A stretch of 39,732 nucleotides of DNA, taken from a virus. The stretch spans positions 1-39,732 of IMG/VR virus record IMGVR_UViG_3300044970_001020. One strand, written 5' to 3'. The notes under the pieces were generated by a model. The model saw nothing but the letters and a program-made list of their open reading frames with translations. It was not told the origin of the DNA and searched no databases. Each line of letters opens with the position of its first letter. The stretch's first letter is position 1. Both the position numbers and the translations under genes were made by a program. Shown here piece after piece: positions 666-39,732 of the stretch.

Positions 666-698
666 AAAAACCCCAACGGGTAGGAGTCCATCGGGGTT
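666..698 (-). terminator. Intrinsic terminator-like hairpin before the HNH gene
   Basis: The stem AACCCCGATGG/CCGTTGGGGTT (11 bp with two wobbles, 8-nt loop) runs into TTTTT on the minus strand, 12 bases before the HNH start codon. A terminator in front of a start codon implies attenuation, or a short RNA that ends here. Confidence 0.65.
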
Positions 699-759
699 AG
701 TGAAACAAAATAAATGTTTCAAAATTTCTTTTGAGCCGCTCCTACCTGATTCAAAAGAA
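666..759 (-). ncRNA. Structured RNA leader or small RNA: three hairpins with a loop-loop pairing
   Basis: Read on the minus strand, three hairpins follow one another. Hairpin A is a 9-bp perfect stem TTCTTTTGA/TCAAAAGAA (751-759 with 726-734) and a 16-nt loop. Hairpin B is a 7-bp perfect stem TGAAACA/TGTTTCA (715-721 with 701-707). Hairpin C is an 11-bp stem with two wobble pairs (688-698 with 669-679), an 8-nt loop and a T tract. Loop A holds GGTAGGAG (739-746), the exact complement of CTCCTACC in and beside loop C (679-686), so a kissing or pseudoknot contact of 7-8 bp is possible. A -7 box ends 6 bases upstream of hairpin A. This is either a self-contained small RNA or an attenuator controlling the HNH and replication genes. 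I recognise no known family. Confidence 0.6.
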
Positions 760-3631: not shown

Positions 3632-4157
3632 CTACGATATACCCTCAAGTTATTATAAGAATAATATCGGTAAGACCCTTTACAATACGGTGCTTACAAT
3701 GAATCCATCTGTTATCATTGAGTTCGGCACGTTGCACGGTTATTCAGCCGTCGCAATGGCTCAGGCTTTACGAGACTTAGATAGCGATACCGTCATTATG
3801 TGTCATGACCTTTGGCAAAAGTACCCGTATAAAAATACGTCGATGGAAAAGACGCAAGATACCATCGACGCGCTGGGGCTAACAAAATATATTGAATTGA
3901 TTGAATGGGATTTTTATAATTGGAAACCCGAACCTTTTGATTTAATGCACTTTGATATAAGCAACCACGCTGGGCATTTAAAGTATTTAAAAAGTTTAAA
4001 GGAATACCATTTTTTAAACGGCTCAATTTTATTTGAAGGCGGGAGCAAGGAAAGAGACAAAGTAGAATGGATGAAAGATTTTCAGCCTATCAATTCATCT
4101 GGTTTAAACTTTATTACAATTAACGAGGACTTTCCTTCTTTATCCCTACTCCTATGA
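3618..4157 (+). CDS. Class I SAM-dependent methyltransferase-like protein
   Basis: This 179-residue protein starts at MAYFNYDIPSS; the frame is open further upstream, but that part lies over the previous gene. The glycine-rich SAM loop is EFGTLHGYSA (residues 35-44), the acidic end of strand 2 is MCHDLW (61-66), and LMHFDISNHAGH (109-120) sits at the usual strand 4 position. This resembles small Methyltransf_24-type enzymes that often accompany glycosyltransferases in polysaccharide clusters. Methylation of a sugar is plausible from context. Its TGA overlaps the next ATG. Confidence 0.7.
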   Translation: MAYFNYDIPSSYYKNNIGKTLYNTVLTMNPSVIIEFGTLHGYSAVAMAQALRDLDSDTVIMCHDLWQKYPYKNTSMEKTQDTIDALGLTKYIELIEWDFYNWKPEPFDLMHFDISNHAGHLKYLKSLKEYHFLNGSILFEGGSKERDKVEWMKDFQPINSSGLNFITINEDFPSLSLLL

Positions 4158-4858
4158 GGTTAGCCGTTGTTGCCTCAGGTTGGCATTTCCCCTTAGATTT
4201 TTATGAATCAGTCGCAAGGCAAATCGTTGTCAAAGATTGGGCGTATGATTTATTTTGCATCTCACACCGTGACCCAAAGTATTCAAAGGAGGAAAAAAAG
4301 GATTTGGCATTAAAGGAATTGGACACTATTCTTTATAAAGAAATTGCAACCATTGAGCAGATTAAAGACTTAGGCTGGAATTATAAAGAATACCCGAACA
4401 CCGTTGGCGATTGGGGATGTTCTAACCAATGGCTGGAAGAACACAATTTTACTGAATACGATTTACTTCTTTTTACGCATGATGACAATTTTATTCATAA
4501 CTACAAATGGTTCGGGAACATCATTCACTTTATGGGAGAAAACTGGGAAATACTTTCTAATTCATGCGGTGACCCTGTTGGTTGGCTTCGGGGTTCATGT
4601 GAGTTCTTTAAGCCTTCTTTGTTGCATAAGATTGGCGGCAAGTTTGATTTGTCATTGGTGACGTTGAACAGGGAAGAAGAAGTTTATTCACCAGATAAAT
4701 GGGTTGATATTTTTGATTGGAACAACACGGTACACCCGTTGATGAAGTTTATATCGGAAAACAAAATAGTAGTTGGACATCTGTCAAATACTTACAGGCA
4801 TTCAATGTTTGTGTCCGAGGGTGAACGTGGATTTATTTCCCCAATTTTAAAAAAATAA
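4154..4858 (+). CDS. GT-A-like glycosyltransferase
   Basis: This 234-residue protein opens with MRLAVVASGW and has LLLFTHDDNF at residues 104-113. That is a hydrophobic strand ending in an HDD acidic motif, like the metal and nucleotide-sugar binding site of GT-A enzymes. A LRGSCEFFKPSLL segment follows, as in acceptor-side regions of such enzymes. I recognise the fold type, not the specific family. ATGA coupling to the methyltransferase suggests the two act on the same glycan. Confidence 0.6.
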   Translation: MRLAVVASGWHFPLDFYESVARQIVVKDWAYDLFCISHRDPKYSKEEKKDLALKELDTILYKEIATIEQIKDLGWNYKEYPNTVGDWGCSNQWLEEHNFTEYDLLLFTHDDNFIHNYKWFGNIIHFMGENWEILSNSCGDPVGWLRGSCEFFKPSLLHKIGGKFDLSLVTLNREEEVYSPDKWVDIFDWNNTVHPLMKFISENKIVVGHLSNTYRHSMFVSEGERGFISPILKK

Positions 4859-34602: not shown

Positions 34603-34608
34603 CAAAAT

Positions 34609-38742: not shown

Positions 38743-39732
38743 TTATTGTGTTTGATATTTCTTCATAGCCTCAGCCAAAAGCCTGTCAACTTCATCGTCA
38801 TACGCCTTTTTCTTTGCAGCTGGTGAAGACGTTTGGTAAGCCGTGTATATCTTTCCCGCCTGTCCGTATAAAATGGCTGGAGTAAAATTTGCTTTTAACC
38901 ATTTGTCATTTAATGACCAAGCGGCTTGTAAAAATACTTTTAATGCCTCATTCGTATCGTTATTCCTGTCAACTTTTTCAATCCACCGTAACAAATATAC
39001 CATACCTCCAGCATCTTTTGGGCTCATGATATAATGACCCTTTTGGTCAGTTGGGTATGCAGCGCCTGATAACTGTTCGAATGTTTGGCAAAACACGGTA
39101 AAGGCTTCGTAGGTCGGATTCGGCTTCCGCTCGGCTTTCGGCTCGGCGTCGGCTTTTCTTTCTTTTTGCGGCGCAACAATTTTTCTTTCTTTTTCTAAAT
39201 GTGTAATTAAAGTAAAGGGATTAACCTTTTGACTTTTGTCAATTTCATTTTCATCAATTACAATTTTTTCAAATGAAGTAAAATCTGAAAGATTTTTAAT
39301 ATCAACTGAGTTAGTAAATGTATTTAGTACTTGGTTAGCAACTGGTATAGGTTCGCCCTTTCGTGAAATTCCATTTGACTGTTTGGTATTTTCCATTTGC
39401 CCGTTTGGTAAAATGGTATTTACCTTTTGGTAATCTCCAATTTCCTCAAGATGGAAATTATCTGATAGATATAAATCTTCATTCAGAAACGCATACCAAA
39501 TAGTTCTATCGTAAGCAATTTTATTATAATTGCCTTTTATTAAAATTTCCTTACCTACCAATGATTCAATTATCCTTCTAACTTGTTTTTCAGTCCAAAA
39601 TGGATAATATTCAGTTAGTGACTTATTTGTGTTGTAAGTCCAATACCTTAAATCATGATAATTTGTTTTATTTGCTTTATTAAGCCTTATCCAGAATTGA
39701 AATGATTTAACCATTATAGCTTCATCAACTCC
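38743..39732 (-). CDS. Replication initiator-like protein, main part
   Basis: This gene is cut by the right edge and continues at 166-128 on the left. The complete protein is about 342 residues. Residues about 10-115 look like the winged-helix DNA-binding domain of phage replication proteins (HDLRYWTYNTNKSL, FWTEKQVRRIIESL, IWYAFLNED). A variable, low-complexity linker follows, with Lys/Glu/Ala repeats. The conserved C-terminal helical domain is at about 220-325 (YEAFTVFCQTFEQLSG, WSLNDKWLKANFTPAILYG). This is the two-domain plan of replisome organisers that bind the origin and recruit helicase. The origin may lie within the gene or upstream of it; I see no iterons. Confidence 0.7.
   Translation of the reverse strand, partial: GVDEAIMVKSFQFWIRLNKANKTNYHDLRYWTYNTNKSLTEYYPFWTEKQVRRIIESLVGKEILIKGNYNKIAYDRTIWYAFLNEDLYLSDNFHLEEIGDYQKVNTILPNGQMENTKQSNGISRKGEPIPVANQVLNTFTNSVDIKNLSDFTSFEKIVIDENEIDKSQKVNPFTLITHLEKERKIVAPQKERKADAEPKAERKPNPTYEAFTVFCQTFEQLSGAAYPTDQKGHYIMSPKDAGGMVYLLRWIEKVDRNNDTNEALKVFLQAAWSLNDKWLKANFTPAILYGQAGKIYTAYQTSSPAAKKKAYDDEVDRLLAEAMKKYQTQ
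39606..39732. repeat. Terminal direct repeat, right copy (contig overlap)
   Basis: This is identical to bases 1-127; see the left copy. It should be removed once when closing the circle. Confidence 0.95.

Follow-up and report, generated by a model that had tools for sequence, protein, structure and literature searches.

A family of phage leader RNAs with kissing hairpin loops and a terminator-like hairpin, suggestive of an RNA switch on replication and DNA-processing genes

A leader of about 100 nt stands before the replication and DNA-processing genes of an uncultured phage (IMG/VR record IMGVR_UViG_3300044970_001020, analyzed as one stretch of 39,732 nt that we call the window) and is, on comparative evidence, a member of a structured-RNA family of its own, described by covariance model R1, whose homologues carry compensatory changes in their stems and in a contact between two hairpin loops. 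The letters of the two loops differ from phage to phage, and both their pairing and the strength of that pairing are kept. These features suggest an undescribed RNA switch acting on phage replication and DNA-processing genes. Our preferred reading, to which we give a probability of about 0.5, is that the leader is a transcription attenuator on a phage early operon whose terminator would be governed by a kissing loop in cis.

All leader features of the window lie on the minus strand, where three hairpins, A, B, and C, occupy positions 759–669 and are preceded by a −7 box of the form TAnnTTTG (TATTTTTG, 772–765), assigned as a Bacteroidota-type promoter box from the sequence, the homologues, and the published consensus (PMC7366714). 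Hairpin A (759–726) has 12-nt arms, TTCTTTTGAATC and GGCTCAAAAGAA, with one mismatch and the loop AGGTAGGAGC; hairpin B (721–701) has 7 bp in the window; and hairpin C (698–669), which a terminator consensus scan marks as intrinsic-terminator-like, has 11 bp and the loop ACTCCTAC, followed by TTTCATTTTA. The kissing strand of loop A, GGUAGGAG at 746–739, has a perfect partner in CUCCUACC at 686–679, where hairpin C presents CUCCUAC(C), that is, the kissing strand of loop C and the closing base of the loop. The sequence-only reading had proposed three hairpins with complementary loops at these positions, and GGTAGGAG (746–739) and CTCCTACC (686–679) are indeed exact complements. Its description of hairpin C as a terminator-like stem before the start of an HNH gene also stands, with the corrections that the stem ends at 669 and not at 666 and that 15 nt, not 12, separate it from the ATG (653–651). 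The T tract that had been placed after hairpin C is a T-rich tail in the homologues (668–659 in the window), but in the window itself it is interrupted (TTTCATTTT), with five T when the tail is taken to include the last two A–U pairs of the stem. The leader of the window folds with a minimum free energy of −31.3 kcal/mol compared with −19.9 ± 3.4 kcal/mol for dinucleotide shuffles (z = −3.4; none of 200 shuffles was as good). A descriptor combining two hairpins of at least 8 bp, a 7-nt loop complementarity, and a T tract matches a single site in the 39.7-kb genome, with 0.1 matches expected per random genome.

About 70 homologues are present in about 50 viral contigs, and 59 distinct sequences were aligned. 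A pattern search with fixed loops led to five viral contigs, and many more loci came from searches with replication proteins and with stem patterns without fixed loops. Covariance model R1 gives members more than 60 bits and the rest less than 35 bits among 63 loci, and by this model 30 of 32 whole viral records contain one or more members. Without the model, a scan of 2.7 Mb for a promoter box, a hairpin, at least 6 complementary loop bases, a T tract, and an ATG recovered 54 distinct elements together with about five spurious 6-nt ones. Locus L043 and many matches to wide patterns were set aside as chance, mostly within coding sequence. The family is so far known only from uncultured phages of probable flavobacteria: the closest relatives of the terminase are those of Riemerella phages (identity at most 46%), so the host of the phage is probably a flavobacterium. 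A pattern scan of cellular genome contigs yielded zero members by the covariance model, and 395 Bacteroidia genomes gave one weak match (G161), which was judged to be chance since it lacks the kissing loops. The leader was likewise absent from the stretches read of Bacteroides phage B124-14, Flavobacterium phage elemoE, and Riemerella phage CRP6. Against Rfam 15, the window has no match at the gathering cutoff, its best subthreshold matches at a permissive cutoff are chance, and four homologous loci returned tRNAs only. Searches of the open-access literature turned up no account of such a leader.

The proposal that this is a structured RNA with a loop–loop contact, to be checked by compensatory changes in homologues, is borne out by two-sided covariation in stems A and C and at all seven kissing pairs, with hairpin B kept. 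Across the 59 distinct rows, 95.8% of the cells of the proposed pairs are paired, compared with 36–51% when the partner is slid by 1–3 columns; two-sided cells number 343 versus 83 in shuffles, and the covariation score is 0.625 versus 0.19, all of these being pair counts that kinship among the sequences inflates. Stem A covaries at 10 of 12 pairs and stem C at 10 of 10, the latter with 99.5% of cells paired, and a hairpin B of at least 5 bp is present in 59 of 59 homologues. In the kissing helix, 98.8% of cells are paired and two-sided changes occur at 7 of 7 pairs; the match is a perfect 7/7 in 49 of the 59 aligned rows, the others being alignment gaps except for a natural 6/7 variant (L160). 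The alignment, although written out with the pseudoknot, was fitted to a model lacking it and therefore did not impose the kissing counts. G–U cells (91) are common relative to A–C cells (43), and most of the latter fall in inner columns of stem A that are often open, which argues for a constraint at the RNA level, on this strand. Column entropies add that the outer part of stem A and the 3′ strand of hairpin B are conserved in sequence. A reading frame runs through the element of the window (767–168, with a TTG start). Protein coding was rejected as the explanation because element lengths fall into all three classes modulo 3, with no conserved frame, and the stems covary. Of the outcomes by which the sequence-only reading was to be refuted, neither a lack of covariation nor a conserved reading frame was thus observed.

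The sequence-only reading had also called the arrangement the layout of an attenuator, and at the level of sequence this claim fared well: a promoter, a terminator-like hairpin, and a start codon at fixed spacing accompany every homologue, in the order promoter, A, B, C, T tract, ATG. A TAnnTTT box ends 5–8 nt 5′ of hairpin A in 59 of 59 members and in 12% of shuffles, and TAnnTTTG is the known −7 element of Bacteroidota, including Flavobacterium johnsoniae (PMC7366714). The 8 bases after hairpin C contain 6–8 T in all 59 members, the T fraction of this tail being 0.73 versus 0.25 upstream of other open reading frames of the window, and hairpin C itself has a mean energy of −14.5 kcal/mol across members. 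The next ATG follows stem C by 12–22 nt (13–17 nt in most members). Promoter, leader, terminator-like hairpin, and ATG thus form one compact unit, and the element amounts to roughly the whole 5′ UTR. Next to the −7 box, between 45 and 15 nt 5′ of the leaders, TGTAAA occurs more often than expected (26 of 59 versus 3.1) and is possibly an activator site or a phage-specific promoter element. On the opposite strand, 4 nt separate the end of the −7 box TATATTTG (1009–1021 of the window, +) from the ATG that opens the divergent operon; the mRNA of that operon thus looks leaderless, unlike the one with the long leader on the other strand. Two further strong terminator-like hairpins with 7–8 T lie within the early operon at 34603–34579 and 37710–37686 (−).

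About 18 codes of loop A occur in the family: GUAGGAG, GUAGCAG, AGUGCAG, CUGGACA, GUGAAGG, GUAGGAC, GCACUAC, GUAGACA, GUGGACG, GUGGAGA, GUUGAGG, GUGCAAG, GUAGAGG, GUGGAAG, GUGAUAG, GUCGCAC, GUGGUAG, and CUAGACA. Their strength is nearly constant. In 13 of the 17 loop types used for this statistic, 4 of the 7 kissing pairs are G–C, a spread that all of 2000 column shuffles exceed, although the independent types are few and p becomes 0.02 once codes differing by one base are merged. This narrowness suggests that kissing strength is under selection for a set value, as it would be in a balanced switch. Cognate loop duplexes are worth about −9 kcal/mol and noncognate ones about −2 kcal/mol. Some phages carry two copies of the leader 0.6–2.5 kb apart, and these two-copy genomes (about 17 records, fewer of them independent) always have two different codes with weak cross-pairing. 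Since gene class and code are confounded, the difference gives only a hint of orthogonality and was discarded as a statistical test of it. Elements whose middles are 90–97% identical can differ wholly in their loops, as L089 and L044 do. The idea that loops evolve faster than stems was not supported in the comparison with stem C, which varies about as much as the kissing pairs, so that drift under a pairing constraint suffices to explain the variety of codes. A natural intermediate of a code change appears in contig 3300027971_000095 (L160 and L161, at its two ends), the end of which carries a strain-variant version of the same locus with one base of loop A changed and 6 of 7 kissing pairs; because the contig end repeats the same locus, this contig was left out of the two-copy genomes.

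The first gene behind the leader of the window encodes an HNH-AP2 endonuclease of 161 aa (653–168, −; PF13392, PF00847, phrog_99). The first 127 bp of the window are repeated exactly and directly at its end (1–127 = 39606–39732), so the contig closes into a circle, and the HNH gene adjoins, across the terminal overlap, a gene for a replication initiation or DnaD-like protein (39714–38743, −; phrog_11233, 3e-19; phrog_6493, 1e-11). The tie to the HNH gene that the sequence-only reading had drawn did not hold as a specific one: 57 distinct elements precede 13 gene classes, which excludes HNH-specific control, and HNH-AP2 follows only 16 of them. An N4/N6 DNA methylase, whose N-terminal part is ParB-like by eye, follows 10 of the 57, and the remaining classes include replication initiators, an HNH-helicase, a Dam methylase, a T5orf172 protein, and a small HTH_36 protein, among others. 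The same code stands before different genes and the same gene class behind different codes, which argues for a modular leader and against an autoregulatory site of one protein. Control of phage replication by the leader is plausible given the initiators within the operon and directly behind some copies. The first-gene slot itself (653–168 in the window; also L002, L004, L036, L057, L075, and L125) looks like a place for variable cargo behind a conserved promoter and leader, in which HNH, methylase, HNH-helicase, T5orf172, Dam, and other genes interchange. The replication initiators have unlike N-termini and one common C-terminal domain. Odd tRNA-like genes lie upstream of the leader in several phages. 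The one at 808–950 of the window (−) has the acceptor, D arm, anticodon loop, and T arm of a tRNA-Leu(UAA)-like molecule in which about 75 nt separate the anticodon stem from the T arm; ARAGORN reports it as tRNA-??? at 810–904, and Rfam has no match. Others lie at 4310–4408 and 3863–3955 (−) of L002, where two Rfam tRNA matches have 15–25 extra nt that ARAGORN reads as anticodon-loop introns, and at about 3790–4080 of L005.

In the mechanism that we favor, transcription would start from the host-type promoter, no more than a few bases from hairpin A, and the emerging leader would fold into hairpins A and B. Loop C would next pair with loop A in a kissing helix of 7–8 bp while hairpin C closes 12–22 nt before the ATG. 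That a T tract follows in every member argues for hairpin C as an intrinsic terminator, and the conserved contact with its set strength argues that pairing with loop A bears on this hairpin. The kissing helix would then set how often hairpin C terminates, the coupling of kissing to termination being itself assumed. Some transcripts would end as leader RNAs of about 90–100 nt and the rest would continue into the replication and DNA-processing operon. During infection, the balance might be shifted by a protein, of phage or host, that binds the conserved stems or by terminated leader RNA acting in trans. If complementarity and strength are all that matter, the loop letters can drift or diversify freely, giving each leader its own code. 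A classical either/or attenuator was not seen: no conserved nested antiterminator was found, the only alternative pairs being those of loop A with loop C before the 3′ half of C is made. Antisense −7 boxes number 5 versus 6.4 expected, with none inside the element, and this missing promoter signal speaks against a separate antisense RNA. Lacking both a nested antiterminator and an antisense promoter, the leader fits neither the classical attenuator nor a system of the pT181 type.

The same loops could act between molecules. Terminated leader RNA would accumulate with genome copies, and its loop A or loop C would kiss the partner loop of nascent leaders of the same code, raising their termination; we regard this as the main rival, though an unlikely one. 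If true, it would provide dosage feedback on early genes and immunity between same-code phages, as P4 CI RNA and plasmid attenuators do. Both contact partners are present on each leader, replication genes stand behind it, the kissing strength is tuned, and the codes differ between phages and within two-copy genomes, where cross-pairing is worth about −2 rather than −9 kcal/mol; in P4, moreover, the CI RNA is made from the leader and pairs with complementary sites in that leader (PMC4825925). Nevertheless, cis pairing between loops of a single molecule should be faster. The two copies mostly precede different gene classes with class-specific loops, so descent may explain their codes, and random pairing of codes would give only about one match, so that the missing matches are not significant. 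The loci also lack a separate antisense promoter, and beyond chance they contain no other hairpin with which the loops could pair. An extension of the same idea, which we think unlikely, makes the private seven-letter code an RNA-only system of dosage control and immunity, in which terminated leaders act in trans on siblings of the same code and different codes let operons and phages coexist without cross-talk.

The remaining readings fare less well. A passive 5′ UTR, in which the kissing fold and 5′ hairpin keep the mRNA from decay or insulate its translation, with hairpin C serving only as a leaky terminator or a barrier, would agree with a hairpin A that begins about at the presumed transcription start, a fold that spans the entire UTR, and 13 gene classes downstream, as expected of a general expression element. 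It needs neither 6–8 T of 8 after hairpin C in every member nor the narrow kissing strength, however, and we consider it distinctly unlikely. The conserved sequence of outer stem A and the 3′ strand of hairpin B would suit a leader whose stems A and B bind a ligand or protein and whose kissing loop relays the signal to hairpin C, and the L5–L13 kissing loops of cobalamin riboswitches couple aptamer and expression platform in such a way (PMC10653944). Yet Rfam has no match, neither an unpaired core nor a junction is conserved, and no common metabolic theme links the genes downstream; this sensing role appears very improbable. Finally, cumulative GC skew turns near 0–1 kb, where an origin or primosome site might be sought in the DNA. 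The tolerance of G–U and the near exclusion of A–C on the RNA strand largely refute a DNA-level element, the spacing of promoter, T tract, and ATG is fixed, and some phages have copies 0.6–2.5 kb apart, so that we give this explanation almost no credence.

The leader gives phages of an understudied host group a strongly supported RNA family. If trans action is true, it would amount to RNA-based immunity or copy-number control in phages that lack an obvious repressor.

In its probable working the leader is closest to P4 immunity, to the pT181 repC leader, and to kissing-loop riboswitches, and it shares the defining features of none of them in full. The loops of c4 antisense RNA pair with targets on the same transcript. 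Like the new leader, c4 RNA (RF01695) of P1/P7-like phages is a structured phage RNA, listed among RNAs from comparative genomics (PMC2864571), but the new leader has no Rfam c4 match, and c4 belongs to proteobacterial phages and has another fold and place. The P4 CI RNA system, too, involves a leader ahead of phage replication genes with internal complementary segments, premature termination, and a leader-derived RNA (PMC4825925). In P4, however, a processed CI RNA addresses two separate target sites, whereas here two hairpin loops kiss within one compact element that includes an intrinsic-terminator-like hairpin, and trans action of the new leader is hypothetical. In cobalamin riboswitches, too, an upstream hairpin is connected with the expression platform by a kissing loop whose strength is important (PMC10653944), but the new leader has no aptamer core or Rfam match, only three hairpins, and about 18 loop codes. 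The contact of known kissing-loop riboswitches stabilizes a separate stem that competes with or favors the terminator (PMC10653944), an arrangement that is not that of the new leader. The pT181 repC leader resembles it as an attenuator before a replication initiator with a terminator just before the ATG, kissing hairpins, and exchangeable specificity (PMC5435934), and differs in requiring a separate antisense RNA and an antiterminator, whereas the new leader shows no antisense promoter and no conserved antiterminator. Kissing-loop specificity tags derived from pT181 by synthetic biologists are the engineered parallel to the new leader, whose roughly 18 natural, nearly orthogonal codes of near-constant strength make kissing loops testable in nature as interchangeable tags for the control of termination.
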